Shown piece by piece: positions 12,424 to 40,403 of a stretch of DNA of 43,174 bases. Below the pieces are notes generated by a model, which saw only the letters and a list, made by a program, of their open reading frames with translations, was not told the origin of the DNA and did not search any database. Both the position numbers and the translations under genes were made by a program. Source of the DNA: a virus. The stretch spans positions 1 through 43,174 of IMG/VR virus record IMGVR_UViG_3300022074_000103; one strand, written 5' to 3'. Position 1 is the stretch's first letter. Every line of letters begins with the position of its first letter.

Positions 12424-12875
12424 TTGTCTTTCTTTACAGATGCGCCATAATAGTACGCAAAGATATTCCCAATCACAACGCCTTCAATCATACCCATCAG
12501 GTGGATGAATAGCTCATTCTCTCGCACAGATTCGATGTATACGACAGCGTAGATTGTGAACACGAACGACAGCAATCCTACCATTCCAGTAACCATCATC
12601 ATCCAGTCTACCTTTCCGGTAGCCTTCACCACCTCTATCTCACGCTGACGAGCAGACGCACGGTCAGCAGACTCCAATTCAAATGCCATCCTAGCAAACT
12701 CAGCCTTCTGTGATGGCTCCAAGTCTGGATCACCTTGAATCAGGTTCTTCACCACACCAAGAGCGCCTTGATCTGGCAGCAGATCTCCCACTACATCAAG
12801 CACCTTGGGAGCGTTGGTTCCTAACCACGCCCCCAGCTTAGTGTCTTTGAACTTCTTCTTATTCTTCTCTGCCAT
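12420..12875 (-). CDS. Holin-like membrane protein (151 aa)
   Basis: The first 90 residues are charged and include KNLIQGDPDLEPSQKAEFAR and ESADRASARQREIEVVKATG, a pattern common in phage holin-family proteins with an N-terminal soluble part. Two transmembrane helices follow at about 92-113 (MMMVTGMVGLLSFVFTIYAV) and 123-143 (IHLMGMIEGVVIGNIFAYYY), with a short basic tail. This fits a holin that would open the inner membrane for the amidase encoded at 38797. It is next to the giant protein gene, overlapping it by 17 bases; T7 also places its holin (17.5) after the ejection and tail genes. A structural membrane protein is an alternative. Confidence 0.65.
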   Translation of the reverse strand: MAEKNKKKFKDTKLGAWLGTNAPKVLDVVGDLLPDQGALGVVKNLIQGDPDLEPSQKAEFARMAFELESADRASARQREIEVVKATGKVDWMMMVTGMVGLLSFVFTIYAVVYIESVRENELFIHLMGMIEGVVIGNIFAYYYGASVKKDK

Positions 12876-15800
12876 CGTAGATCTCTTGCATGATTCTAAC
12901 TAGCTCGATAGAGTGAGGTCTCAACTTGCCTCTTTCTATTTCTATCTGGCTGTTGTAATTCTGGTTCAACTCATTGAGAGCTTCCAGTTTTTCCTGATCG
13001 CTCAGTCTAAAGTACTTTTCACTGGTGATCAACTCCTCTATCTCTGCGTATCTATCTTTTCCTGACACGGCCATGAGTCTGTTCAGTTGCTCAGTGTTGA
13101 GGTACACCTTCTCATCCAAGAACGCTCCGTCCTTCAGGAAGTTCAGATCGTCAAGGCCAGCACGCTTCAGAGCCATCTTAGCTTTTCTGGTCGTCATGTT
13201 TGGCACATTGATCTTTCTCTTCTGAGCATAGCCCGGAGTACCAACCACATCAGGTACAGCCTCGAGTTGCTCGAACAGTCTGAACATCTCCTGTGACACA
13301 TGATCGTCTTCACCCTTTCTCAGCTTAGTGATATCGAACAGCTGGTAAGTCCAACCCATGTTTCCTCTTGGGTTCTGCTCGATTGGTTGGCCCTTCCAGT
13401 TCACTCTTACAGGGATGTCTGTTGCACCGAAGGTTCTGTCCTTCACGATGTACTCCAGTCTCTTGTACAGTCTCTCGCCGTAGCTCATATCCTTGGTGAT
13501 ACGAGTGTCAGGAAGGTACTCTCTCTCAGCTCTGTGCAGAGCGCTCAAGGTATTCGGGAGCGGGATGGCAGATACAGACTTGAATGTACTAGCCAACCAT
13601 CTTTCAGATGCGCTAGAGAAGTCATCAGGATCTGTCGAGGTCAGGATCTCCATGAAGTTGTTTACACCTTGCAGGAACGACTGATCCATCATGTGTGAGA
13701 TTGAGCTGAATGGTCCCAATCCAAATGAATCTGTAACTGCGTGGTGCAAGAAGCCAAAGTCCTCGTACTCTCTGCTTCTGATCTCGTCTCTGTCTGCACC
13801 CTTTATCATGGCACCCATAATGGTACCCGGAATACCCAGCTTGTTGTAGCTAATGAACTGATCGTCAGGTCTTTTCTCTGTGCTCTCACCGTTTATCCAT
13901 CTTCTCAATCCTGAGATGTTGATAGAGTTTGGTGGGAACTGATCGTATGCCAAGTTCTTCTCCTCATCCTCATTCCACTCTACGGCACCTGATATCAATC
14001 CTTCTTTGATCAGGACCATTGCGGTCTGAGTAACCATACTTCCTACTACGATCTTTCCGAAGTTCTGGGCTGCTGATCTAGCATCCTTCTTCTTCAGGTC
14101 GCTCATGATCCTCACGCCTGCAACGTATGGTGACACGAATGTCAGCGTATCCATCAGGATGTTGGCTGGGGTACGAACGTATGGTACAGATGATCTTACG
14201 AGGAACTTACCTACAGCCTCACCGTTTACTCCCGGCAGCACACCGAATCCTTTCGCAAGCATTCTTTGCAGAAAGTTTATTGACTGCTCTGCAATCTCAG
14301 AACCTGTTGTTCTTTCTTGGTAGGTCAGCTTTCTACCTTCACGCTCAGCCAGCTCTCGGGCTCTCTTGTCTGGATACTTAATAAAGTTCTTAAGTGCTTG
14401 ACCTTCAAGACCTTGAGCTAGGCCAGCTTGGTACAGCTCGATCCCTTCTACGCCCCTGCGGAATGGTGTATCACCGAGGGACAGGAATCGGAACATTGTC
14501 TCAGCTGGAATACCAAGCGTACCTTGTACGAACAGCTTGACTCGTTGGCTTAGGTTTGACCTACCGTCAAGACCCATAGGCAGGTCTCCCTTACCCATCG
14601 CAGCTTTCAGTGATCGGAATGGAGCAAAGCCACGCTCTACTCTCCACTCAGTTACGTCTTTAGTCTGTCCAGTATAGATCTCATCGAGCGCCTCTACGAA
14701 TCCAGAACCGAACTTACGTATGCCATACATGTAAGCATTGAGCGAATAGTTTCTCTTGATCGGAGAGTCAATGCCAAACAGGTTGATCAATCTCTCTACA
14801 GGAAGCGCTATCGCATCCACAACACCTTTACCAAGTGCGTTGATCATGTTAGCACCCACGTTGGTGATCTGTGACATTGGGGTCAGCAGGTTACCTTGGA
14901 TGAGCTGCGTGAGCAGGTCGCCCCAGCCTTTCTCGATCACTGCGTTCGCAAACGTATTCAGATCTCTCTCAGCCTTGAGAGCCTGATCAGTAATGCTCTT
15001 CAACTCAGTCTCTACATCCTCACCAGCGATAGCTCGCTTCATAAGATCTTCGTGCTTCTGGTGAAGATCAAACAAAGTGGTAGTCATCTGGGTCAGTCTT
15101 TTCTTCTGATCGTCTGACAAAGTGTTACCTCTTCGCTCAACTTCTTTCATGAAGATCTGGTACATGCCCTGAGGGGTCGAGCTCTTGATCTCTCTGAAGT
15201 GTCTCAGCAGTCGTCCAGCAGTTGTCCCAATCTTGGCGGCTTCTTCTATGAGGCCGGGGATTCTGTCGAGATCACCGTCAGCTACCGCCCTTGAGATCAG
15301 CTCGTTAACTGCAAGCACACCCAAGTCATCGTTTCTGTTCTGAAGTCTACCGAGAGCATCATTAGTCATGATGTCCACGAGCTCCTGAACACTCATTGAC
15401 TCGAGCTTAGCTCTCGCATCCTTGAGGTTTTGCTTTGAGATGTAGTTCTCTGGGTTATCCAAGATGGCTTTCCTTACACCTCCTTCGTATGTTCTAGCGG
15501 CTCTACCAGCAGTCTTTCTGAGTCTTCTAGAGGCTTTCATTCGAACCTCATTGTCTTGCAGGTTCTTAGCGTACTCACTCTTGTCCAGAGCTACTTGAGA
15601 TTGTACAGGCAGATTGTCGTATGCAGTCTCGAGTTCGGCTCTGGTCTCGTAGGTTACACCTAGAACTCTCTCGCTAAACCCTTTGAATCTGTTTACAGCC
15701 TTGTTGTACTTCTCTCCTCTGGTGGTTCTCTTAGCCTTGCCTTTCTCTGACTCTGCTCTACCAGCGGTTACTACTGGATCTGCGAAGTCATAGTACTCGA

Positions 15801-18800
15801 TCTCACCCCTGAGGAACACATCGTTACCGATGATGGTAGCCTCGCTTGCTGACTTGATGGGACGACCAGCTACATCCATAAAGACGTTTGTCTTGAAAGG
15901 ATTGAATACAGCTTTGACCCCATCGAAGTTTGCTTCGTCAATGCTTGCGCTAACGAACTCGCCGTTTACACTAGCCATTGGGAACTTGTTTTCTTGGAAG
16001 GTTGCGATCTTCTCTCTAGCCCCTTGGTTAACGAAAAGCGTTGGGTTCTTTATGGTTACAGCGGTTGCGTACTTCAACGCTTTACCTGATGCACTCTTCT
16101 GGTGCAGAGTCTGTACTGGTACGCCAGTGTTCTTAAGCACGTTGAGGTTTAGCCTCACACCCACCATGTCACCTACGTTAACCTCATTGTTCTCGTTGAT
16201 GATTCGAACCGAGTTCTTGTCAGTGTTAAGTGCTTGACGCTCAGTCTCATTGGTAAGCATCTTACCTCTGTAGCTCAAGGCTTCTTCTCGCGGTCTGTTT
16301 CTAAACAGGTCAGAATCCTCTGCCATTTGCTTGGCCGGAACATCATCCATTGGGATGGTGTCAAACATAGAGAGCTGATGCTCTTGAATCCTGCTCAGTC
16401 TTCTAGACAACTTAGTCTGGTCATTGCTCTCCGTATATCTCGGTGGATCGTTTGCATCGAGCTCAGCCTGATCAGATACGCTCATAGCGTTCTCAGACAT
16501 CCTCTCGTACATAGGTCTTCCATCTGGACCTTCAGCCATAAGCTTGTCCATGATGCGAGCATTTGGTGTATACTCAACCCCAAACGTAGCCTGACTGGTT
16601 GCGTAGATAGCCTGTCCAACCTCAGCTGGTGAGACACCGAGCTCTTTAGCAGCAGCCTGCATTACCTCTGCGTTGAACTTGCGAATACGAACAGTGTCTT
16701 CGTGAGTCTTCGGTGTAATGAGTTTGCTGTAGATTCTGCTTGCCTTCTTGCGTACCTCGAGCGGTTTGCTCTGGTCGTTTCTAAGATCTACCAGCGCACT
16801 CATCAATCTTTTTGCACCCATTCTCTTAGTGTTGACACCAAGCGCCTCAAGGTCAGCTCTAAGCTTGTCAATGTTCCCTTTACCAAACTGTCTGTAGTCT
16901 GGCATCCTTCCAGTGAGCACGCCGAAGTACGAGAATACGTGGGAGTCTTGAGTGGGTACGCTCAGGTCTCCAGCCAAGTTCAGCCCGTAAGCCCCAAGCT
17001 TTTGTCCAAACTGAGTCTGAGCAAACACATCAAACTTTTTACCCACAGGCTCACCCATCCTCTTAATGAACGCCTGAGGTCTGAACTTACCGTCAGCGTT
17101 GGCAAAGCCTTTTGACAGTTCGTTAAGGATTTCCAGCTGACTAGATATTCTAACCATTCTGTCTCCTCTGACATACCCATACTCCAAGTCGTAATCACTT
17201 TGTTTTTGGATGAGATCTATCACCTTTTTAGGGATGACACCAGTTGTGGCTATGTCTGTATTACCGCTCTGGTATTCCTTGGCAATGACTCTAAACAAAT
17301 CCATAGATACCCCAAGGTTAGGAGTAGCTCTCGATCCATTCGAAGTGATGGCAACAACAAAGTCAAAGATTGGCTCTAGCTCCTTCATGACTTGCTCGTC
17401 AATACCGTCCCTCCTGCTAAGGGTTTCAAAGTATCTTGCCTTTGCTTCCTTGTGATCCTTGAAGAAAGTCATTGGGTCAATACCCTTGAGATCTTCTTTA
17501 ATCACATTAGCATCTTGAAGCAACTTAACTTCTCTAGAAAGAATCTCAACAATTCTGGCCTGAGCTTCCTTTGGGTTGTCTCTGAACAACTCGTATGTGA
17601 GTCCATATCTTTCTCTGAGCGCGTGGCTGAAGAACTGTCTAAGCGTAGTGTCTGTCGCAGCAGAGCACAACTTCTTGAGTCCCATCTTGTTACACAGGTA
17701 CTCGTTTTTCAGCTTTGAAAACCTAGCGTAGTTTATTTCTAACTTGGAAATAGGTCTTTCAATAAACTCTTTCTTCAGAAGCAGAGAAGCTTTAGTCGAT
17801 GGGTCGTCTTCGGGAAAGTGGAAGTTTCTGTTTTGTCGCTTCGCCTCTTTTGCAATGAAGGCAACCTGCTTCTCTTCAATGTCTTGAGCACGCTGAACAA
17901 GCCTGTCATAGTAGTCCTTACCCGTGAACTCTTTGTCGCTGTCAGACATTCCCTCATAGGTTCTGATCTTGTTCTTGATGACTCTCATCTGATTAGCCAT
18001 AGCACCAGCGATAGCAGGATTGACGATACCCTGCGAAACAGCATCGGCATTTCTTCTCGTGAACCTGTTGGTTACTTCAGACCCTTCGCCTCCGTATCGG
18101 CTAAGTCTGGTAGAGTATCTAGGCTTGTCTTTGAACTTTGCATTTACCAGCTGGTTTACGTCGATGCTTCTGCCATCAACCTCAAAGTCAAAGACCTCTT
18201 CGTTCTTACCGAAGTCTGTAGATTTTTTCCACCAGTTAATGAAGTGCCACTTACCGTTGAAGGTCATCGAGTCCTCGTAGCTCCCGATGTCTTTTCTAGA
18301 TCCGTCTCGGTAGTACTTGTAATTTGTTCTGTGGAACTTTACCTCGATAGGGCCGTCCTCCTTGAGTGCAAAAGCAGACAGTCTTTGAGATTTCTTGGCT
18401 TGGTCTTTTGCTTTTTGTTCTACTTGAATCCTGAGATCTGCACCATCTTGGAATCTCTTAATAGCGGCCACCATGTCTAACACAGAAGAGTCTGACTTGA
18501 TAGTCAGGTCTTTCATACCAGCAGCATTCAGGATGTTGTTGATGATTACTCTAACCTTAGATGCCAGTCCTGTTTTGACGCTCAAGTCTTCAGCGGCTAC
18601 CGCTGAAAGGAACTCAACCAGAACTTCTTCATCAACCAGACCAGCATCCGCTCCTGTTTCTTTGTATGTCTTTGCTTTTGATTTAAGTCTCTCGGCAAGG
18701 GCGGGATCTGATTTGACGAGTCTGTCGATCTCTCGCCTCATTTTCTTGCGCTGGGCTGGAGTCATATTCTCTACCGCAGGCCCAATCAATGCGTGGAAAG

Positions 18801-21800
18801 ACTCCTCTAGAATTGTTTCGCTAAGAGTTTTCGGTCTAGTTATGCCAGCCTGAGCTTCGAGTGTAGCATTTAGCGCAACAACTTCGGGGTTGATGTACAG
18901 GGTGTTCCCACGCCACATACCTCCAACTGTAGAAAAATCTACACCTTTTTCGCCAATCTGTTTTCCAATTGCAACAGCACTATCAAAGTCGTGAGCGATC
19001 ACAACCCTGAGGTTCGGATACATTTTCTTGATGCGAGCCAAGTACCTGTTCAGGAACTTTCTATCCTTTTGAGTCAAGTGAGGTACATCTTCAGGAACTC
19101 TATAGGAGCCATCCTCCATTGAGTTGAGCTCAGTAGATTTTATCTCTGTAGTGTCGGTCTCTTCAGAGAATACGTCAGCCTCTGCTTCTGCATCCGTTTC
19201 AACAGCAGCTTCTGGTTGGACTTTTTCTGAGAGATTAGTCTCAGCCTCAACAGTCTCTACCACATTGCCATCAGCATCCCTCTGCTCAAACACTACCGCA
19301 CCAGTAGGAACTTCTCCTTCTACGTTTACGTCCTTAATCTCTTTGACTGTAACGCTGCCGCCCTCTTGGGTTGGCTCTGGCATCTGATCTTCAGGAACCT
19401 CGAATCTGTCTGCTTCAGTTTGTGCTGGCGGTTCGTCTATATCTTTTACTGCTTCATTCTCTGGGTTGAGGCCGAGATATTCAAAAAGGTTTTGTTGGGC
19501 ATCAACTACTTCCTCTCTCGCTGCTTCTTTGAGTCTTTGTGTCTCAGCCTGCCCGGTTGGAGTAAACGGTGATGGATCTTTACCTTCCTCTAAGTCCTGA
19601 AGCTTCTTTTTAGCATCGAAGTATTCCTGCTTAAGTCTTTGAGCTTCAGCAAGATCGCTCTCAGTCTTCTTCAGTATTCTTTCACCTTGCTCTCTGGTGG
19701 TTTCGCTGACACCGTCAGGGCCAGCTTCAGCACGCTCTTTGGCTGCTAGTCTTTGTACCTCAAGCTCTTTAGCAATGAATTGAATTTTTTCATCAATCTT
19801 CGTTTCAGCAATAGACTGTCTCTCCTGTACCGTAAGGGGAGTCTCCTTGAGCTCCGACTTATACTTGGAAGTGATTTGATTTCTTTGATCGACTAACGCC
19901 TTGAGCTCCCCTCGGATTTGCCCCTGCTGCTCGGGAGCAGCTTTTTTCATTTCGACACTCTTCTTGTAGATCTCAATATCAAGCTTGTTGATAGAGTCTA
20001 ATTCTTTAGGGTGCCTCACGGACATCATGTTAAACAGAGGAGCTTGAGAGTTGTTAATCTCTCTTACCTTCTTGTCTATGTCCTCAATATTGGCTGTGAG
20101 GACTGCTTTCTTTTTATCGCTGCTAGTGTTATCGAGCAGATCGACAAGCGCTGCTCTGTCAGCCGCAAGAACTTGCAGGGCTGAGGTCAGATCAACATCA
20201 TATTTGCCGCCTACTATTGCTGATTTAACTTTACCGACAGCACCACCAGTTGCGTCAAAAACACTACCAATTGCAGCACCCATGATCGCACCCTCAAGCG
20301 CTTGATCAAACATTTCACTCATTGAGACTTCCTCTCCTTTTGAGTTAGCCTCAATCATGTACTGCATAGCGCTGGTGGTTGCTTCAGACAAGGCTTCACC
20401 ACCAATGGACAAGCCACGGGCAGTAGCGTAACCCTTAAGCATCTGCTGGTTCAACAGTTTACCACTCTCCTTAGAGATAATCCTCCCAGCTCTGAATGAC
20501 TTCTCAGCGGTCTGCATAGCAGCATTGGTCTTAAATCCATATCGACCAATTCTACCTAAGGCATAATCCCCCAAACCTGTTACGATAGAGTAGCCGATCT
20601 TGTCTGCGGTACCGAGAGCTCCTTCGCCCCAGCCCTCTTGATCTGCAATCTCCATGTAAGTGGCACTACCTGTACCGAACCCGTATAGCAGCTGTGACCC
20701 AGATCCTTTGATGAGACCTTTGTAAGCGGCCTTCCCAATCTTTGATGCTCTTGAAAAGCGTGCTGCTGTCATTCCAGCCCTAGCTGCGAGCGCCCCAAAC
20801 TTTGCGAAAGAAGCACCACTAGCGATAGAAGCACCGCCTGTTACAAAACCTTCGACAGCAGTCATTGCAATGAGCGGAGCCATAGCACCTACACCATTGC
20901 CGATGTGAGTAAACCCAGCAATGATATCGCCATCACTGAATGATTCAGTCATGCTTTTTGTAAGGATAGTTGCGTCAGCATACTCAGCCTCTAACCTTCT
21001 ATTGAATAAGTCTCTTCTTGCCTTGGCCTCTTCATCAGTTTCAAGGTCACCACCAAACGCTTCAGCAATACTGTCTCCTGCGCTCATAAAGAAGCCTCCA
21101 ATACCATTGATCATTCTGAACAGCTCGGCATCTGCTGACGCTGCTAGAGACCCAAAGATACCTTGGCTATTGTACTGCCCGTCATTGTCAAGATCTGTGT
21201 CCAGACCATACTCAAAGTACATCTTGTCTGAGAAGTTCTCCAAGAAGTCTTCGTCATCCTTCATCTCTTCAGGGAAGGCGTTCCTCACAATAGCAGCACC
21301 CTTCTCCTCCATAAAAGTTTGGAAGGAAGACTGAATACCCTGTTGTCGGATTTCCTCCAAAGCAAGGTGATAGTCTGATTCGCTGATCTCGCCAGCATCT
21401 AACTGATCCGCAAGGGCATCTTGAGCGGGCTTGTTGTGGTTCCTGATGTTATCCATCAAACCTTCTTGCTCACGGAATCTGTCTGAAATGTTTTTATAGA
21501 GGTCTTCTGCAAGCTGCTCCTGATCCTCCGTAAACTCGTACTCCAAGTAATCGGGAGGTGCGGGCAGATCGTCTTGCAAGTGAGAGGGCAGGCTCTCGTA
21601 GTACTGTTTGTATGCAGGGGTTCCCTTCGGAGGGATGGGCATGTCGTTTCTTACCTGCTGATCGTCGTCATCAAACAAGCTTGAAGATATAGCTGAAGGT
21701 GTCGCGCCAACAAGACCAAGGACTCCCAGTGCCGGACCAACACTTGCTTGTGTTAGAGCGTCACCCGTGCTCGACACACCAAAGCCCATGTAGTCTGAGG

Positions 21801-22173
21801 CGTACTCAAATCCTTCTTCAGGCTCGCCTTGCTTCAATGCGTTACTCAACCACGAAGAGTACGCATCACCAATCTCAGTCTGTGCTTTGTTTACTAGATC
21901 AACTTGACCCTCTTGCAAGGAAGATCCCAAATCTGGTTCTTCCAAATCTGAGATAAACGGCTGATCCGGAGCTGTGTTTTGAACGTCCTGCCCCGACAAA
22001 TCTTCGGCTGGTTGGGGCGCTTCCGATCCTTTTTTTTTTGAGATAATGTCTGTGATCAACTGGTTTCTGCTTCCAGTAAAACCCTCCGATGAAGTAATAG
22101 ACTTGTAGACCTCCATCTCAGTCATACCCTGAGATAGTAACTCATCAATCTGGTTGAAGTACTCTTCGTTCAT
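12859..22173 (-). CDS. Giant polyvalent/ejection-type virion protein (3104 aa)
   Basis: At 9.3 kb this takes up more than a fifth of the window and holds the place of T7 gp16. Visible regions: a charged N-terminus; a Gly/Ala hydrophobic zone at about 425-470 and again near 630-650; Glu/Gln-rich coiled coil at about 690-900; an acidic linker at about 900-1050. A protease-like block with LEESFHALIG near 1124 follows. Blocks near 1600 (AITSNGSRATPN), 1735 (GLNLAGDLSVPTQDSH) and 1855 (LGVSPAEVGQAIYATSQ) resemble domains of phage polyvalent proteins. The C-terminal 700 residues have hydrophobic helices (LLTPMSQITNVGANMINALG near 2430; VVGSMVTQTAMVLI near 2715). No transglycosylase motif was found. 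It is probably packaged and ejected with the genome. Many plus-strand frames inside are shadows. Confidence 0.75.
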   Translation of the reverse strand: MNEEYFNQIDELLSQGMTEMEVYKSITSSEGFTGSRNQLITDIISKKKGSEAPQPAEDLSGQDVQNTAPDQPFISDLEEPDLGSSLQEGQVDLVNKAQTEIGDAYSSWLSNALKQGEPEEGFEYASDYMGFGVSSTGDALTQASVGPALGVLGLVGATPSAISSSLFDDDDQQVRNDMPIPPKGTPAYKQYYESLPSHLQDDLPAPPDYLEYEFTEDQEQLAEDLYKNISDRFREQEGLMDNIRNHNKPAQDALADQLDAGEISESDYHLALEEIRQQGIQSSFQTFMEEKGAAIVRNAFPEEMKDDEDFLENFSDKMYFEYGLDTDLDNDGQYNSQGIFGSLAASADAELFRMINGIGGFFMSAGDSIAEAFGGDLETDEEAKARRDLFNRRLEAEYADATILTKSMTESFSDGDIIAGFTHIGNGVGAMAPLIAMTAVEGFVTGGASIASGASFAKFGALAARAGMTAARFSRASKIGKAAYKGLIKGSGSQLLYGFGTGSATYMEIADQEGWGEGALGTADKIGYSIVTGLGDYALGRIGRYGFKTNAAMQTAEKSFRAGRIISKESGKLLNQQMLKGYATARGLSIGGEALSEATTSAMQYMIEANSKGEEVSMSEMFDQALEGAIMGAAIGSVFDATGGAVGKVKSAIVGGKYDVDLTSALQVLAADRAALVDLLDNTSSDKKKAVLTANIEDIDKKVREINNSQAPLFNMMSVRHPKELDSINKLDIEIYKKSVEMKKAAPEQQGQIRGELKALVDQRNQITSKYKSELKETPLTVQERQSIAETKIDEKIQFIAKELEVQRLAAKERAEAGPDGVSETTREQGERILKKTESDLAEAQRLKQEYFDAKKKLQDLEEGKDPSPFTPTGQAETQRLKEAAREEVVDAQQNLFEYLGLNPENEAVKDIDEPPAQTEADRFEVPEDQMPEPTQEGGSVTVKEIKDVNVEGEVPTGAVVFEQRDADGNVVETVEAETNLSEKVQPEAAVETDAEAEADVFSEETDTTEIKSTELNSMEDGSYRVPEDVPHLTQKDRKFLNRYLARIKKMYPNLRVVIAHDFDSAVAIGKQIGEKGVDFSTVGGMWRGNTLYINPEVVALNATLEAQAGITRPKTLSETILEESFHALIGPAVENMTPAQRKKMRREIDRLVKSDPALAERLKSKAKTYKETGADAGLVDEEVLVEFLSAVAAEDLSVKTGLASKVRVIINNILNAAGMKDLTIKSDSSVLDMVAAIKRFQDGADLRIQVEQKAKDQAKKSQRLSAFALKEDGPIEVKFHRTNYKYYRDGSRKDIGSYEDSMTFNGKWHFINWWKKSTDFGKNEEVFDFEVDGRSIDVNQLVNAKFKDKPRYSTRLSRYGGEGSEVTNRFTRRNADAVSQGIVNPAIAGAMANQMRVIKNKIRTYEGMSDSDKEFTGKDYYDRLVQRAQDIEEKQVAFIAKEAKRQNRNFHFPEDDPSTKASLLLKKEFIERPISKLEINYARFSKLKNEYLCNKMGLKKLCSAATDTTLRQFFSHALRERYGLTYELFRDNPKEAQARIVEILSREVKLLQDANVIKEDLKGIDPMTFFKDHKEAKARYFETLSRRDGIDEQVMKELEPIFDFVVAITSNGSRATPNLGVSMDLFRVIAKEYQSGNTDIATTGVIPKKVIDLIQKQSDYDLEYGYVRGDRMVRISSQLEILNELSKGFANADGKFRPQAFIKRMGEPVGKKFDVFAQTQFGQKLGAYGLNLAGDLSVPTQDSHVFSYFGVLTGRMPDYRQFGKGNIDKLRADLEALGVNTKRMGAKRLMSALVDLRNDQSKPLEVRKKASRIYSKLITPKTHEDTVRIRKFNAEVMQAAAKELGVSPAEVGQAIYATSQATFGVEYTPNARIMDKLMAEGPDGRPMYERMSENAMSVSDQAELDANDPPRYTESNDQTKLSRRLSRIQEHQLSMFDTIPMDDVPAKQMAEDSDLFRNRPREEALSYRGKMLTNETERQALNTDKNSVRIINENNEVNVGDMVGVRLNLNVLKNTGVPVQTLHQKSASGKALKYATAVTIKNPTLFVNQGAREKIATFQENKFPMASVNGEFVSASIDEANFDGVKAVFNPFKTNVFMDVAGRPIKSASEATIIGNDVFLRGEIEYYDFADPVVTAGRAESEKGKAKRTTRGEKYNKAVNRFKGFSERVLGVTYETRAELETAYDNLPVQSQVALDKSEYAKNLQDNEVRMKASRRLRKTAGRAARTYEGGVRKAILDNPENYISKQNLKDARAKLESMSVQELVDIMTNDALGRLQNRNDDLGVLAVNELISRAVADGDLDRIPGLIEEAAKIGTTAGRLLRHFREIKSSTPQGMYQIFMKEVERRGNTLSDDQKKRLTQMTTTLFDLHQKHEDLMKRAIAGEDVETELKSITDQALKAERDLNTFANAVIEKGWGDLLTQLIQGNLLTPMSQITNVGANMINALGKGVVDAIALPVERLINLFGIDSPIKRNYSLNAYMYGIRKFGSGFVEALDEIYTGQTKDVTEWRVERGFAPFRSLKAAMGKGDLPMGLDGRSNLSQRVKLFVQGTLGIPAETMFRFLSLGDTPFRRGVEGIELYQAGLAQGLEGQALKNFIKYPDKRARELAEREGRKLTYQERTTGSEIAEQSINFLQRMLAKGFGVLPGVNGEAVGKFLVRSSVPYVRTPANILMDTLTFVSPYVAGVRIMSDLKKKDARSAAQNFGKIVVGSMVTQTAMVLIKEGLISGAVEWNEDEEKNLAYDQFPPNSINISGLRRWINGESTEKRPDDQFISYNKLGIPGTIMGAMIKGADRDEIRSREYEDFGFLHHAVTDSFGLGPFSSISHMMDQSFLQGVNNFMEILTSTDPDDFSSASERWLASTFKSVSAIPLPNTLSALHRAEREYLPDTRITKDMSYGERLYKRLEYIVKDRTFGATDIPVRVNWKGQPIEQNPRGNMGWTYQLFDITKLRKGEDDHVSQEMFRLFEQLEAVPDVVGTPGYAQKRKINVPNMTTRKAKMALKRAGLDDLNFLKDGAFLDEKVYLNTEQLNRLMAVSGKDRYAEIEELITSEKYFRLSDQEKLEALNELNQNYNSQIEIERGKLRPHSIELVRIMQEIYDGREE

Positions 22174-24739: not shown

Positions 24740-27700
24740 TTAAACGTGATTGAGGTTAGACGGCGTGTAGTGGGCGTTTACGCAGAACAGCTCGTACTTG
24801 TTGTTGTTGGTTGAGCTCATCTTGATCTTAGTGAAGTGACCTCTGACTGAATCTCCATTCAGGTCTTTTGGTAAGTCCATCACTACAGCTTGCCCTGCAA
24901 GAGGGACTGTATTGCCAGAGATCTTTACGAGCGGACCTTGAGGGTCAGATAAAACAGAATTGCCAACAGTAACGATTGTATCTCCAGATCCAATATTCTG
25001 TAAGCTGCCATCGACAAATCGCCTCAGTTCAGCACCCTCCATTATCCCGTTGGGAAAGTCACTCAACCTCAAGAAGAAGTCACCCCCAATCTGTACTGTT
25101 TCGCTGACCAGCCCTAAGAGTCTGATGTGAGATGTGCTGTTAGGGCTAATGTCTCTACCTACCTGTGCGTAGAATGTACCTTCTCTTTCGGAGAACTTTT
25201 GTACACCAATGATAGACCTAGACCCATCGCTAGACTCAATTGAGCAGTTCATTACGCCATTCGTAACCTCTTGAGAGACAGCGTCATAGACTTTTGATGT
25301 GCTTGGCTGCGTGTTTGAAATAACCTCAATAAATGACTGGCTTGTGTTCTGATTGTAGAACTGACACCTGTTGTTCTCTTCATCGTTGTCAGCATGCTTG
25401 TGCATCAACAGCGGGAAGCCAATGGGTAGATCCGTGAAGGTATCATCGTTTACGTACTTGACAGTGTACATGGAGTTGTCTTGATTCGCATACACGTCTG
25501 GGTAGAACGAGTTTCTTGATTGCCAGAATCCACCACCAGAATTGTAGGATATGGTGAACCCAACGTACCCTTCTTCGGCTAAGAACTCTATTGCATCAGC
25601 AGCTAGATCATCTCCAAGCAGGTTGAGGTTTCTTAGCGCATCACCTGTGCTCTCTTCGGTCAGGAATGATCCAGAGCCATTTACAGGAGTGCCATCCTCA
25701 AACACAACAACTTGATTCTCAATATCAAAGAACAAAGGCTGTCCGTTAAAATTAAGTTCGCCTAATCCCTTTGCGGTGTATGTGTCCCCATCAACAGTCT
25801 CTTGGAATGTGTTTACGGCAGAACCAAAAGCTCCCAACAGAAGAAGCACATCTGGCACGTTTACAACCCCATCAAAATTAAAGTCTGGTGATGAAAGCAA
25901 GGTTTGAGTAAAGTTGCCGTTGCCATCAGATTCATACGCTGGGAAACTAGACTCGACATTGGTGCCAAAAAACCCAAGAAGACCCAGTATGTCGTTTGTA
26001 CCGATAACCCCATCCCCATTTAAGTCAGGATTGAAGTATAGAGGCACAAGCACTGGAAGGTTATCCGTTGCACCGCCACCAGCGTCCTCATCACCACCAC
26101 CCTGATCATCTTCTATCACTGCACCGCTTTGATACCCTAGCTGCTGTGCAGGAACGAATGTGATGTAATAAACCTGATCGTCTGGATCATATCCAGAAAC
26201 AATCCTTCCGCTATTCCTGTCGTAGATCTTATTGAACAACTCGATAGCATCGTCAACCAAGCTGGATACTCCTTGATCTGATATGGCGGTAAGCTGTCCA
26301 CCAGCAAACCTGAGAACCTTGTGCCTGCTTCTATCGAAGAAGTAAACGTCATTATCCTGCACCAGAACAGACTCAGGGTGATTACCACACCCGTAGTCCC
26401 CTGCGTAGTAAGTTGTCGTTCTAAGTACGTCAGTAGACAGCGCCACGTTTGTGCTACCCGCAGCATCAGTGATAATACTCTTGTTTACTGGGGTCTTTGA
26501 GAACTTATTCTCTTGGATCGCCACAAGCTCATCATAACCCTGACGCTCAGTTCCGTAGTTAGAGATGTAGTTGCAGGCACCGTACTGGCTGTCAAGGCTG
26601 TAGAAGTTGGCTGTTCCCGGATTAAATGAAGTGAGGGACAGTCTCGATACATCCTCTGCGTATGCATCGCTGTAAGTAACCCCGTTAAATCTACGGAAGG
26701 TAGCTGCGTTCTCAAACTTTACGTGGGGTCGCCCTTGACTCCACATCTTGTCACCCAGCTTTTCAGATACAGTGAAACTCTCTAACGCTTGAGTCCTGTA
26801 CTTGTATAGATCAAAGTCAGACTTGAACACATTGAAAGCATCACCACCCTCATTGAACTTTGGGCTTTTACATGGCACAGCCCTGTAGTTGATGTCCCCT
26901 GAGTCTATTACAAACGCTGGGCCGTGAGGGTTAGCCCCATCCTGTCTTGGTTGTATTCTTTTGGGCTCACCGATCTCGTAGTAAAACTGATTTTCTACAC
27001 TCTTCTTAGGTGTAAGTATTTCGACTACGCATTGGTTTCTCCACCCATTGCTTGCTGATGGAATCTCTCCAGATACATTGACATAGTCAAAGTCGTTTTC
27101 GTTTGACTGCCCTGAGGCTTGCGTTGCAGTTGTGTCCCTGTAGTATCTTGAAACGTGGTTCCAGTCAAACCCTTGGTACTTTAAGATGTTGCCATCCTCA
27201 CCAAACGCACCACCAGCTATTGCGCTGGCTTCCAGCACCAGAAACTTCCCAGTCATAAACTCGGGGATGTCGTTTACGTTAGCAAGCTGTGTGCCTGCTG
27301 GGGAGTGGGCTATCGGATTGTCAACATCACGAACAAGAAGCTCTACTCCGACGACATCGAACTCAATGATAGATCCGTCAGATGCACCTTTGTATTTGTT
27401 TACCAGCTCATCTTCTACTGTACTAGAGTCTACGCCCCCGTTAGTCTCAGCTCTAAAGCTGATAACTCTTAGCTTATCGCCTTCAGTAAAGGTGTAATCT
27501 CTAAAAGTATTACGCTCATCTCTGTACTGATCAAGCGTCTCAAGGCTGACATACAGTCTCCTAGACTCACCGTCAATATCCCTTTTAGGAAGTGCGGCAT
27601 CACCGAGCTCCCCATCAGTTTCTGAATGTTTTACTCTAGCAGGAAAGGCACCACCTACACTGTATTGAGTAAACTCAGACACAGTGGAGTTACCCGGATA

Positions 27701-30112
27701 CACGATCTGATATGTCTCAGCCCACTCGGGCGGCTGATTGGTAATCTGAATTTCAACAGCAGCTGGGCCGTCCTTGTACGTTTCTGGGTCAAGCTGGCTT
27801 CCTCTAAACTGACTTCCTTCTTTGTTAAACCACTCAACGTAGAACGAACCTAGCTCATTTACAAATCCAGACCTGTTGAATCTGTCGTAGTAAACAACAC
27901 CGAGGTTATGGAAAGCGCCAGCTTTAAATCCTGATACTTGAGAATTTACCGTTACTTGGAATGACTGATTAGTCAAATAACTATCTGCTGGAACAAAAAG
28001 CTCTGACTCTTGATCGAATCGTGTTCCACCAGTAATTAACAGGTTTGACTCTTCGGTTATTTCTGCCTCAAGTAATTGACCTGTATTAGGGTTTCTCAAC
28101 GCTCTAAGAAAGAAGTCTGATAACCCAAAATCAACCGGATGAAACACCGGAGTAAGACCCTCAATATTTAAAGGCTTAAAATTAGTAGGCTGAATACCGA
28201 AGTTTAAAGTATTTAAGTTGTTGATTACATTCTTAATACCGAGTGTAACCCTTGTTGCGCCAAGCACTACAGAGCTTTGCCTTAGTATATCGTTTGAAAA
28301 TAAAGTACTTTCAGAGTAACTAATCGGGTTGTTAAACTCAATCGGATCACCATTACCTACGGTAAATGAGCCCCCTATAGTTGCGTGGTATATGACTTCA
28401 AAAGTTGAGTCCTCAAGAGTGTTAGCTAACAGCGTCATGAAACTTTCACTACCTCCGCTAAATGGCATGTCGAAGGGAACAACCAGACTAATGGCAAACT
28501 CTGGCAGCTGACCGATTCCTCCAGTTAAAGCGCCAAGCTCCTCGGGTGTAGATATTCCGTTTGGAGAAGATATGGTAAAATGGGTGTCAAGGGAGTTTTG
28601 ATCTGTAGCGACCAATCCTCCAGCAAGCACACCATCAGCAATTATTTGAGCACCAGTTGAAGGATCAAAAATAGACTGAGGCTCAAATGTTATAGAATCT
28701 ACTGAGACCTCTATATCAAGATCTGAACCTTCGAGGTTAGACAAATAAGTAAGGCTAGACTCAAACTCTTGTGGCTGAGACAGAAGAGCGCCAAAATCAA
28801 AAGAAAGATTTACAATCGTTCCAGTAGGCACTATGGTTGACTCAGCATCCTCATTAGCAATGCCCATGATTTCAGCTACGTCTATGGTCCCCGAAGTTTG
28901 CCCGCCAAAGCCTTGAAAATGATCCGCTACACGGACGAGACCTACAAGCTCATTTTTACCAACATCAGAAGTTCTGTAAACAACATCAATGTTACCCCTG
29001 ACATCTACATTAGGTCTCCCTTCAGTGTAGTTTGAGAACATGAGTCTGTTGCCTACCACTGCTTGGCCTGTGGCTTCAAAAGGAACATTGTCGTACAGCT
29101 TGTTGACCTCTAAGTCAGATACAAATGTTGATAGTCGATCATTGAAAAACCTGTACTCATTAGATCCGTTGTAGACCTGTATGTCTACGCCATTGATGTT
29201 TCTAGTCAGAGACTCGTTGACTCGAACTTCGTCTACAACTCTAAATGGGCCTGTGTTTCCGGCTCTCGCAAGTATCCTAAGCTTGGAGATGTCGAAAGAA
29301 TTTTTTAATCCAAGTGCGCTAATGTTTGGATTGATCACGCACACGTTATCTACGCTTGGACGAATACCTGAGCCCACCTCGTTCACGTTGAACAGGGTGA
29401 GCTGTGTTGGTATGGTCAAGGGAGAGTATGGCGATATGGCAGACTCTTCTCCGTCCTTGTAGATCAGCTGAGTAGCAAACTGAAATGCTTCATCCCTAAA
29501 TGAATTGCTGTCAATGTTTGGATCCGTAGTGAAAGACGCTTCAGGCGCAAACACCGATGGGGCTTTGATGCAATTGAATGTATACTCAAAGTTCCTATCA
29601 GATGCGACAGCTGAATACTCACCGTTGAGAGCCCTGTCTACATTTACCTTTCTTGGTGGGTTGACACCATCGGTAAAAAACAAGATGGTTTGGAGACCAC
29701 CGCTCCTAGCAAAGTCTCCGTTTACCACGTCTAGTTTTACAAACCCTCGAGGATCAAAGTTAAACCTTGAGTCCTTGACCACGACTCTGTACTTATCTGT
29801 GCTGCTGTTGTACTGGTAGATAGCGTGCTCTTCGCCTGATTCGTCATTGTCAGCAACCACGAAGTACACAAAGCCTCTCTGGGGGTCGCTTGCTGATCCG
29901 ATACCTCGGACCCTTCTATTGTTGACAGGATTGTCGGAGTCGTTGAGCGGGTCTGCCTTGACAGTACCCTTCATATTTTTTGCAATAGAAGCAGTACCCT
30001 TCCCATCTTCTGAGAGGGTGATGTTCATTGCATCGCTCATGAACCCGTTCTCGAGCAGTCTCTCATCAGAATCTGCATTGAGACGGCCCGGTAAAATCTT
30101 GTCAATAGCCAT
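24740..30112 (-). CDS. Large tail (nozzle/tubular B-like) protein with dockerin-type insert (1790 aa)
   Basis: The N-terminus (ILPGRLNADSDERLLENG, then MNITLSEDGKGTASIAKNMKG) and the repeated beta-propeller-like segments (GFVYFVVADNDESGEEHAIY; SGYDPDDQVYYITFVPAQQ near 1325) are typical of podovirus tail-tube B/nozzle proteins such as T7 gp12, but at 1790 aa it is over twice that size. Near residues 1358-1430 two EF-hand-like repeats appear, DLNGDGVIGTNDILGLLGFF and DFNFDGVVNVPDVLLLLGAF. Each has Asp/Asn at loop positions 1, 3, 5 and 12, as in type I dockerins. An acidic Gly-rich linker precedes them. It lies directly after two adaptor-like genes, with which it should form the tail. ATG 30112 overlaps the upstream stop by one base. 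Confidence 0.75.
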   Translation of the reverse strand: MAIDKILPGRLNADSDERLLENGFMSDAMNITLSEDGKGTASIAKNMKGTVKADPLNDSDNPVNNRRVRGIGSASDPQRGFVYFVVADNDESGEEHAIYQYNSSTDKYRVVVKDSRFNFDPRGFVKLDVVNGDFARSGGLQTILFFTDGVNPPRKVNVDRALNGEYSAVASDRNFEYTFNCIKAPSVFAPEASFTTDPNIDSNSFRDEAFQFATQLIYKDGEESAISPYSPLTIPTQLTLFNVNEVGSGIRPSVDNVCVINPNISALGLKNSFDISKLRILARAGNTGPFRVVDEVRVNESLTRNINGVDIQVYNGSNEYRFFNDRLSTFVSDLEVNKLYDNVPFEATGQAVVGNRLMFSNYTEGRPNVDVRGNIDVVYRTSDVGKNELVGLVRVADHFQGFGGQTSGTIDVAEIMGIANEDAESTIVPTGTIVNLSFDFGALLSQPQEFESSLTYLSNLEGSDLDIEVSVDSITFEPQSIFDPSTGAQIIADGVLAGGLVATDQNSLDTHFTISSPNGISTPEELGALTGGIGQLPEFAISLVVPFDMPFSGGSESFMTLLANTLEDSTFEVIYHATIGGSFTVGNGDPIEFNNPISYSESTLFSNDILRQSSVVLGATRVTLGIKNVINNLNTLNFGIQPTNFKPLNIEGLTPVFHPVDFGLSDFFLRALRNPNTGQLLEAEITEESNLLITGGTRFDQESELFVPADSYLTNQSFQVTVNSQVSGFKAGAFHNLGVVYYDRFNRSGFVNELGSFYVEWFNKEGSQFRGSQLDPETYKDGPAAVEIQITNQPPEWAETYQIVYPGNSTVSEFTQYSVGGAFPARVKHSETDGELGDAALPKRDIDGESRRLYVSLETLDQYRDERNTFRDYTFTEGDKLRVISFRAETNGGVDSSTVEDELVNKYKGASDGSIIEFDVVGVELLVRDVDNPIAHSPAGTQLANVNDIPEFMTGKFLVLEASAIAGGAFGEDGNILKYQGFDWNHVSRYYRDTTATQASGQSNENDFDYVNVSGEIPSASNGWRNQCVVEILTPKKSVENQFYYEIGEPKRIQPRQDGANPHGPAFVIDSGDINYRAVPCKSPKFNEGGDAFNVFKSDFDLYKYRTQALESFTVSEKLGDKMWSQGRPHVKFENAATFRRFNGVTYSDAYAEDVSRLSLTSFNPGTANFYSLDSQYGACNYISNYGTERQGYDELVAIQENKFSKTPVNKSIITDAAGSTNVALSTDVLRTTTYYAGDYGCGNHPESVLVQDNDVYFFDRSRHKVLRFAGGQLTAISDQGVSSLVDDAIELFNKIYDRNSGRIVSGYDPDDQVYYITFVPAQQLGYQSGAVIEDDQGGGDEDAGGGATDNLPVLVPLYFNPDLNGDGVIGTNDILGLLGFFGTNVESSFPAYESDGNGNFTQTLLSSPDFNFDGVVNVPDVLLLLGAFGSAVNTFQETVDGDTYTAKGLGELNFNGQPLFFDIENQVVVFEDGTPVNGSGSFLTEESTGDALRNLNLLGDDLAADAIEFLAEEGYVGFTISYNSGGGFWQSRNSFYPDVYANQDNSMYTVKYVNDDTFTDLPIGFPLLMHKHADNDEENNRCQFYNQNTSQSFIEVISNTQPSTSKVYDAVSQEVTNGVMNCSIESSDGSRSIIGVQKFSEREGTFYAQVGRDISPNSTSHIRLLGLVSETVQIGGDFFLRLSDFPNGIMEGAELRRFVDGSLQNIGSGDTIVTVGNSVLSDPQGPLVKISGNTVPLAGQAVVMDLPKDLNGDSVRGHFTKIKMSSTNNNKYELFCVNAHYTPSNLNHV

Positions 30113-36524: not shown

Positions 36525-36884
36525 TTATTTCTTCTTTCCCTTTTTGGCTCGGATCTTAGCGGCTTCCTTCTTTCCGAAGGCGCTTTTTACTCTAGCCATC
36601 GCCCAAGCGTGTTGAGATACTCTTGGTCTGTTGCCAGAAGACATGTATGCAGCAAGACCTCGACGGTATACTTCTTTTTGTGCGGCACTAAGTCCAGCCA
36701 TACCGCCTCCCTTGTACTTTACAATTCTGCCGCCTTCAGCCATTGAGTCTCTCTCTTTCATCAGCTTGTCTAGGTTCTTTGGATAAGGCTTGCCCTTCTC
36801 GTAGATCTTAGCAATCTTTTTTATGAGCTCCGCTCGCCTCCCTCTGTTTGAGCTGCCCTTAAGGTACTTCTCATTAATCTTCAT
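36525..36884 (-). CDS. Small basic Lys-rich protein (119 aa)
   Basis: A basic protein with helices (RRAELIKKIAKIYEKGKPYP, KNLDKLMKERDS), a Gly-rich loop (AEGGRIVKYKGGGMAGL) and a C-terminal RVSQHAWAMARVKSAFGKKE followed by a Lys/Ala tail. Proteins of this make-up, ending in W..ARV.SF, are repeatedly found near structural genes of aquatic phages, but their role is unknown. The C-terminal stretch of Lys residues could contact packaged DNA. It overlaps the next gene upstream by four bases. Confidence 0.6.
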   Translation of the reverse strand: MKINEKYLKGSSNRGRRAELIKKIAKIYEKGKPYPKNLDKLMKERDSMAEGGRIVKYKGGGMAGLSAAQKEVYRRGLAAYMSSGNRPRVSQHAWAMARVKSAFGKKEAAKIRAKKGKKK

Positions 36885-37147
36885 GACTTAGGGTGATCTA
36901 CCAGCTTGAACTTAGCTTTCTTTACAGCACCGGGGTGCGGCTTGTAATCACCTTTCATCAGGTAGTATCTACCCTGTTCTTCCATCCAGTGGTGACCAGC
37001 AGGGGGATCAATACTTACAGACTTGTTGGAGATGCTGAGCTTACCGCCCTTCTTGAATCCGGGTACACCCCGTCCTTTCAGTATGTCTTTCTGATCTACC
37101 TTCCCGTCTTTATTTAGATCAGGGAAACCTTTTTTCTTAGCTCTCAT
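36881..37147 (-). CDS. Small basic protein with EF-hand-like loop (88 aa)
   Basis: Residues about 9-22 read DLNKDGKVDQKDIL, an EF-hand/dockerin-type calcium loop with Asp/Asn at positions 1, 3, 5 and Asp at 12. A Gly/Lys segment (RGVPGFKKGGKLSISNKSVS) and an aromatic part (AGHHWMEEQGRYYLMKGDY) follow. It is strongly basic, and overlaps both neighbours by four bases. Function unknown; probably a minor virion or assembly protein. Confidence 0.6.
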   Translation of the reverse strand: MRAKKKGFPDLNKDGKVDQKDILKGRGVPGFKKGGKLSISNKSVSIDPPAGHHWMEEQGRYYLMKGDYKPHPGAVKKAKFKLVDHPKS

Positions 37148-39219: not shown

Positions 39220-39549
39220 TTATTCTTCGGGTTCGGGTGGATCATACTCTTTCAACTCAGCTTCTGTTAAAGTTACGATCTCTAATACCTCTCTGTTTAC
39301 TACTGGGTTTCCTGTTGGAGCATACGTACCAAGAATGAAGTCCATAATCTGAGACCCAATCTCACCCATGTGATCTGCGATATCGCTGTAATAGAAGAAC
39401 CAGATATCTTGAGTTGGATGCTTCTTGTAGTTGGCTACGTTAGATGTGACCTGTCCATCATCATAGCGCTGCTCTACAGTGCTGATCCAGTTGGCAAGTT
39501 GCTGTATGTGTTGAGCAGAAAGCTCTTGATATAGGCGTATAATTCTCAT
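39220..39549 (-). CDS. Hypothetical protein (109 aa)
   Basis: A soluble, acidic protein (QELSAQHIQQLANWISTVEQ, KKHPTQDIWFFYYSDIADHM) ending in Pro/Glu-rich DPPEPEE. It lies between the ConA-like virion protein and the amidase, six bases before the latter and sharing one base with the former. No motif, signal or membrane helix is visible. It could be a tail-fibre chaperone or assembly protein by position, without direct support. Confidence 0.58.
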   Translation of the reverse strand: MRIIRLYQELSAQHIQQLANWISTVEQRYDDGQVTSNVANYKKHPTQDIWFFYYSDIADHMGEIGSQIMDFILGTYAPTGNPVVNREVLEIVTLTEAELKEYDPPEPEE

Positions 39550-40403
39550 CAGGTATATAGACTGTATTGTGAGTTCATGTCATCACGGATAGCATCACTG
39601 TTCGTTGTAGACTGAGAGCTGTCAAAAATAATTAGCTCGTAAGTATATCCGTCCCATTCGTGATTTGTAGCATCAGCCCCTAAGTTAAAGGAGTCAGCCC
39701 CAGAGTGAGCGGTCGTGGTGTTGGATGTAGAGCCTATCTCCGAGCCGTTTACGTCTATACGAAGGTTAGAACCGTCATGATGATAGTAGTTGTATTCATT
39801 ACCAGAAGTACTAGCGGGGCTTGTTGCAAACTGAACGCCTCTCCAAACAAATCGATTGACATTAGAATACCTGTTGGTTCTAAAGTAAGTAATACCTCCA
39901 TTAGCATGTGGTGCTGTTGATAGGGACATGTTGGTACAAAAACCGGTGTCATTGTTATCTGTAGCATGGTGTATACTTACCGCAGGACCAGAGCTAAGAA
40001 AACCACCTGATACCTGAGCTACGCTTGACAAGTGAACGTCTGATGCACCGCTAAACTTTACTGCCCGACCTGTAGTTGCACCATCATCAAATGTTGGTTG
40101 ACGACTAGAAGTGGCTTGCTGGAGGTCTCGACCAGCACCACTTTGATCGTACCACTTCACTACGTGGGCAGTATCACTACCAAGGAACGTGTCAATAGCT
40201 GAGTAGTCTACAGTCTCACCCATACCAAGGCCAGAACCAAAGTCTTGCTCAGTGTTGTCTGAGCTTCTACGCAAACGTATCAGAGGCCCAGTATACCCAC
40301 TGTTAATCCGTCTAGTGCTGAGTGCTAATACAGGGCTGTCAGACGAAAAGTTCGCTAGATCCAATCCACTAAATGAATATACATATGAGTTTATCAGGAA
40401 CAT
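39549..40403 (-). CDS. Arabinofuranosidase-B/ConA-like receptor-binding or tail-spike protein (284 aa)
   Basis: Residues about 25-115 carry the hallmark of the alpha-L-arabinofuranosidase B catalytic/ConA-like family: ALSTRRINSGYTGPLIRLRR, SSDNTEQDFG, VVKWYDQSGAGRDLQQATSS and RQPTFDDGATTGRAVKFSGA. The rest is a jelly-roll-like sequence with NYYHHDGSNLRIDVNGSEIG and a closing NHEWDGYTYELIIFDSSQ. In phages such domains bind or cleave surface glycans at the tail or fibre tip. Whether catalytic residues are kept is unclear. The neighbour upstream encodes the collagen-like fibre protein, so the two may work together in host recognition. Confidence 0.72.
   Translation of the reverse strand: MFLINSYVYSFSGLDLANFSSDSPVLALSTRRINSGYTGPLIRLRRSSDNTEQDFGSGLGMGETVDYSAIDTFLGSDTAHVVKWYDQSGAGRDLQQATSSRQPTFDDGATTGRAVKFSGASDVHLSSVAQVSGGFLSSGPAVSIHHATDNNDTGFCTNMSLSTAPHANGGITYFRTNRYSNVNRFVWRGVQFATSPASTSGNEYNYYHHDGSNLRIDVNGSEIGSTSNTTTAHSGADSFNLGADATNHEWDGYTYELIIFDSSQSTTNSDAIRDDMNSQYSLYT

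Follow-up and report, generated by a model that had tools for sequence, protein, structure and literature searches.

How does a calcium-binding module of a kind found in secreted bacterial proteins come to sit inside a phage tail protein, and what might it do there? The question is raised by a viral DNA stretch of 43,174 nucleotides (IMG/VR record IMGVR_UViG_3300022074_000103), itself a fragment and called the window below. A sequence-only reading of this stretch had described a dockerin-type calcium-binding pair inserted in a tail nozzle-like protein and had suggested that the phage might have taken it from its host and used it either to attach to a cohesin-like partner or to fix tail structure in calcium-rich water. 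The two repeats are indeed found at the place described, on the minus strand, in an open reading frame (24740..30112) encoding a protein of 1790 aa that holds both calcium loops.

This protein matches the virion structural protein family phrog_14478 (E=2e-83) and, in a full Pfam scan, the family crAss_MUZ_C (PF25729) with E=5.4e-5 and 24 bits, just below the cut-off of 27, which the muzzle of the related locus L004 exceeds. The PF25729 match delimits a muzzle C-terminal domain at residues 1581-1654 (25151..25372, minus strand). Its named relatives come from Flavobacterium, Cellulophaga, Maribacter and Tenacibaculum phages of Pervagoviridae, Pachyviridae and Elemovirus, in which they are structural proteins, and a profile of the C-terminal blades of the relatives, from strand C onward, matches residues 1202-1292 of crAss001 gp44 (41.6 bits). 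On account of these matches, and with homology spanning both the body and the C-terminal blades, the window protein is identified by sequence as a crassvirus-type muzzle, the tail-tip gate protein. As with gp44, the C-terminal propeller strands and C-terminal domain align and the position among the tail genes is identical. There is a resemblance between the muzzle propeller and the T7 nozzle. The crAss001 muzzle forms a hexamer at the tip of the tail, and its 7-bladed propeller is gated by a loop of blade 4; two Ig domains lie beneath the propeller, the crass domain likely touches the cell and exposed loops make cell contact (PMC10172136). By analogy with gp44, the window protein would adopt the same hexameric tail-tip assembly, 7-bladed propeller and gate loop. 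Elsewhere in the window, also on the minus strand, a 3104-aa protein (12859..22173) carries a Phage_L5_gp82 domain at residues 2017-2119 and no further Pfam match, and a lectin/glucanase-like protein of 284 aa (39549..40403) that matches ArabFuran-catal (9e-10) lies in the structural gene block.

The dockerin-type pair belongs to an insertion of ~199 aa (residues 1320-1518; 25559..26155, minus strand) in a propeller hairpin, bounded by the strand IVSGYDPDDQVYYITF upstream and the strand FTISYNSGGGFWQSRNSFYP downstream. The last conserved strand before it, in the PDDQVYYITF region, is the end of strands A/B as placed by alignments (residues 1310-1319; 26156..26185, minus strand), these strand letters being set by analogy to the propeller repeats. 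It is followed by propeller strands C and D (residues 1519-1538; 25499..25558, minus strand), equivalent to the first residues of the second protein of the split muzzles described below. Within the insertion, an acidic Gly-rich linker (residues 1333-1351; 26060..26116, minus strand) precedes the pair, and a post-dockerin part (residues 1434-1518; 25559..25813, minus strand) follows it with a conserved NGQPxFxD...VVFxDGxPVNG stretch. Two other loci share the insertion, L003 (80% identity) and L004 (56% identity); the post-dockerin part is conserved in both, and the linker differs in length in L003 and is missing in L004. At the hairpin there are only 3-26 aa in eight relatives that are 34-40% identical over 1360-1420 residues, 4-26 aa in some 50 more distant muzzles and a short turn in crAss001, so the insertion is lineage-specific and not an integral part of the tail proteins homologous to this one. 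The corresponding hairpin of gp44 differs from that of the window protein in being just a short turn (DVYFTY-KD-HCLCYSEL). Length variation has been described in the crass and IG2 domains of muzzles, not at this hairpin (PMC10172136). Compared between the window and L003, the dockerin pair is under purifying selection, with a dN/dS of ~0.12; the flanks give 0.05-0.11 and the post-dockerin part ~0.30. A tblastn search of the insertion against named phage records returned no match, and AF2, given three sequences, did not yield a usable model of the full insertion (pLDDT 35.7).

The pair itself (residues 1363-1433; 25814..26026, minus strand) is a tandem of two 12-residue calcium loops, with a helix after each one according to the sequence and the AF2 model. 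Loop 1, DLNGDGVIGTND, covers residues 1363-1374 (25991..26026, minus strand) and loop 2, DFNFDGVVNVPD, residues 1410-1421 (25850..25885, minus strand); both carry D, N, D and D at ligand positions 1, 3, 5 and 12, the pattern from which a dockerin had originally been proposed. The ligand positions of L003 are all D or N (DLDGNGVVGTSD and DLNFDGSVGTSD), and the second loop of L004 is degenerate. A chance origin of the loop pair was ruled out by shuffling the protein: two such loops 24-60 aa apart appeared in 0 of 20,000 shuffles, and the expectation for one loop alone is 0.0074. The profile search suggested by the sequence-only reading was answered in part, as Dockerin_1 (PF00404) matches residues 1363-1425 with 19.8 bits and E=3.5e-5 when searched within this record, a score below the curated cut-off of 22.9, and with 16.0 bits (E=0.014) in the all-Pfam scan of the window muzzle. 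The L003 match is likewise under the cut-off; the muzzle of L098, one of the split muzzles, exceeds it with 23.9 bits counting neighbouring hits.

The assignment is strengthened by profile and fold comparisons. A profile built from phage sequences only (two of them) finds the dockerin 2y3n_B as its best PDB match (E=3.7e-6), with calmodulins behind at 0.015. For residues 1350-1435, AF2 was run on 24 aligned sequences from phages, other viruses and bacteria, dockerins included, and returned a model with a pLDDT of 79.5 overall and 88-95 across most of the repeats; it places helices at 1372-1379 and 1419-1427 and predicts that the spacer forms a hairpin. All 30 Foldseek matches of this model in the PDB are dockerins, a result to be read in the light of an input alignment rich in bacterial dockerins; the best, again 2y3n_B, has a TM-score of 0.84 by target and an rmsd of 2.7, and the small size of the domain keeps the E-values weak (best 0.0066). 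Taken with the predicted model, a dockerin fold rather than a generic EF-hand is well supported and very probable. The pair thus resembles the type I/II dockerins of cellulosomes (PF00404; 2y3n) in its two 12-residue calcium loops with helices and in a predicted fold that retrieves dockerins only, but departs from them in its longer spacer (the loops start 47 residues apart, with the predicted hairpin), its Pfam score below the cut-off, its lack of a detected cohesin and its location inside a virion protein rather than at a chain end. A separate 88-aa open reading frame of the window (36881..37147, minus strand) opens with one loop resembling half a dockerin, PDLNKDGKVDQKDILKGRGVPGFKKGG, and the L005 record contains a similar one (locus L095).

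Judged from alignments, the inserted hairpin is a recurrent site of module insertion and gene splitting across the muzzle family, an aspect missed by the sequence-only reading. Among 58 muzzle loci chosen by their conserved body only, without reference to dockerins, the gene is split at this hairpin in 28, the second protein beginning at the next strand. In all 28 the ATG of the second gene falls at strand C, -8 to +14 nt from the stop with one at +523. At least one EF/dockerin loop was found in 14 of 23 non-redundant first-protein tails, a strict loop being missing in the other nine; the 19 loops of these tails compare with 0.37 in shuffles (maximum 4), which excludes chance. No EF/dockerin loop was found in whole muzzles with a short hairpin. 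Separate split muzzles devoid of dockerin loops bear other modules at the hairpin (Big_9 in L027, Fib_succ_major in L066), and in some split muzzles whole genes lie between the two halves. At least one gene, in gaps of ~0.5-1.2 kb, separates the halves in L009, L044, L055, L066, L075, L087 and L186, and the intervening gene of ctfjg026 is annotated as a putative glycosidase. The whole muzzles L229, L231, L232, L235 and L236 have different insertions of 131-156 aa at the same hairpin, with no EF loop.

A scan of IMG/VR for D.N.DG.[VI]GT.DL retrieved 24 loci, five of which are other muzzles representing four distinct proteins (L096/L103, L098, L102 and L104). In each, the repeat follows strand B, the gene then stops and the next gene starts with Met and strand C. 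The remaining loci include several collagen-like tail fibres and also M43 protease-type proteins. In the collagen-like tail fibre proteins L101, L106, L107/L113/L119 and L115, the same dockerin-type loop lies in the C-terminal part. The 68 kb phage contig that holds L096 encodes, alongside its dockerin-bearing split muzzle, an M43-type metalloprotease-like protein (L173) with a terminal dockerin pair scoring 24.1 bits, above the Pfam cut-off; the Flavobacteriales genomes described below possess similar proteases with the same ending.

The split is also seen in a cultured phage. In Cellulophaga phage phi13:2, the break at the hairpin yields gp120 (1613 aa) and gp121 (241 aa), each of which is annotated as a structural protein; like the window muzzle, this one is extended at the same place, here by some 500 aa that are Big_9-like by eye, but it differs in its gene split and in that no dockerin loop was seen in the gp120 tail. 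The muzzle of Gundel_1, of the same family as phi13:2, is whole. An assembly error or frameshift behind the splits was ruled out by the ATG at strand C in 28 loci, by the genes lying between halves and by the finished phi13:2 and ctfjg026 records, which are also split. The muzzle of Maribacter phage Panino (L008, 3468..7381) is annotated as two CDS but is broken elsewhere, before a YGIGLHPES motif, with an intron, a frameshift or an error as candidates. The literature searched, which included few subscription papers and is no proof of absence, held no description of a dockerin in a muzzle or of a split muzzle; a similarity to dockerin was noted earlier in Vibrio phage VvAW1, for its gene 40 (PMC3558961).

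Whether these modules share one origin was addressed with a tree of 80 muzzles sampled by the muzzle body and built without the insertion. The lineage of the window, L003 and L004 is placed within the whole muzzles (SH-aLRT 97-99), and the loop-bearing split muzzles fall in a clade of 27 rows apart from the window lineage. Splitting accounts for at least five changes on this tree, a count that is only indicative because of long branches and a short tree search. An earlier tree covered 84 muzzles, its dockerin carriers having been chosen with a dockerin motif, and united the window lineage and the split dockerin muzzles in one clade; a single dockerin origin was rejected in favour of separate gains because the body-sampled tree, which supersedes that motif-biased one, nests the window lineage among whole muzzles. 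The best tree, with its long branches, is therefore indicative of a gain of the module in the window lineage separate from that of the split clade.

The presence of the same dockerin type in marine bacteria, also anticipated by the sequence-only reading, was borne out in metagenome-assembled genomes (MAGs) of marine Flavobacteriales. A strict dockerin motif had no match in the bacterial genomes; a looser one, D.NGDG.VGT.DLL, scanned across 84,980 prokaryote genomes, matched 35 loci, nearly all in MAGs of Flavobacteriales/Crocinitomicaceae or Phycisphaerales/Planctomycetota. These repeats mostly lie 22-26 aa from the protein C-terminus, and several of the genomes have PF00404 matches above the cut-off. 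Large proteins of marine Flavobacteriales MAGs (L137, L141, L143, L151-L154, L158, L159, L167, L169 and L170) end in a near-identical half-dockerin, CPGDLNGDGQVGTPDLLxFLSxFGTxCE, which lies 25-26 aa from the stop and looks like a C-terminal tag. The phage pair shares with the dockerins of marine Flavobacteriales secreted proteins the signature D.NGDG.VGT.DLL.LL..FG, but it is internal whereas the bacterial repeats end large, apparently secreted proteins and M43-type proteases. The tail of the split muzzle L104 bears GCxDPxAxNYDP-type repeats also found in Flavobacteriales proteins. Uptake of the module from a Flavobacteriales-type host is likely rather than proved. The cohesin-like partner is the part of the original proposal that gained no support: cohesin (PF00963) has no match in the window, in eight virus records, which are fragments, or in eight Flavobacteriales genomes carrying this dockerin, and a classical dockerin-cohesin pair is consequently unsupported.

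The placement of the module offers a clue to its role. By analogy with propeller repeats, GYDP...YYITF would form strands A-B and TISY...FWQSRNSF strands C-D of one blade, so that the insertion would occupy a B-C loop. In propellers, B-C loops share a face with the inter-blade connections. In crAss001, the domain IG1 sits in such a connection, beneath the propeller (PMC10172136). Because the face of the B-C loop also carries the Ig domains, the module would lie on the distal side, and a cell-facing position, argued from propeller topology, is probable. We favour, at somewhat better than even odds, a host-type, Ca2+-folded module that serves display or adhesion from the side of the gate facing the cell. 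The hairpin lies in the C-terminal half of the muzzle propeller; the module would be held off the gate by the acidic Gly-rich linker, and the pair would fold on seawater Ca2+. A module of the secreted-protein type of marine Flavobacteriales, probably acquired from such a host, may then dock to a surface protein or glycan of that type of host, or to another virion appendage, and thereby help adsorption or hold the gate. We infer the adhesive role tentatively, at slightly under an even chance.

The main rival is a structural clamp, in which the Ca2+-dependent pair rigidifies the insertion and holds two muzzle strands or polypeptides together without an outside partner. Dockerin repeats fold on Ca2+; this property, the need of split muzzles for a means of holding their first and second proteins together, the enrichment of EF/dockerin loops in first-protein tails and the lack of a detected cohesin all speak for the clamp. 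However, the module is dispensable for the split form, since nine of the 23 split tails have no strict loop and the tails of further split loci are Ig-like or unrelated, and whole muzzles manage without it; we consider the clamp rather unlikely. A related possibility, which seems distinctly unlikely, is that one gate blade is naturally built from two polypeptides meeting at the hairpin and that the independently gained Ca2+ modules serve as a latch or trigger responding to the ion, so that Ca2+ would open or lock the gate when the tail meets the cell. The insertion could also be a neutral passenger, host-derived or acidic and of low complexity, with EF-like loops retained by chance. Its lineage specificity, its quicker evolution than the flanks and the degenerate second loop of L004 agree with this, but the dN/dS across the pair and the D or N at every ligand position in L003 point the other way, as does the fact that such loops recur at this one hairpin in clades that are separate, and a passenger is highly unlikely. 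Least likely is classical docking of the module to a cohesin carried by the host surface or by a different phage protein: the fold search does return cellulosomal dockerins, the best (2y3n_B) from a cohesin-dockerin complex, but the cohesin searches described above are negative and the repeats differ at loop positions 10-11 (T-N and V-P), unlike those of a symmetric type I dockerin.

Dockerin modules are here encountered in virions, outside the cellulosome context and with no cohesin partner found, and the split muzzles represent a natural split beta-propeller inside a virion. In crassvirus-type phages the muzzle is the gate that lets out DNA and cargo, and a single, exact hairpin of the propeller is used repeatedly for host-type surface modules or gene breaks. 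This hairpin is a concrete location at which host contact or gate control may be examined in culturable phages, such as phi13:2 and the unsplit Gundel_1.
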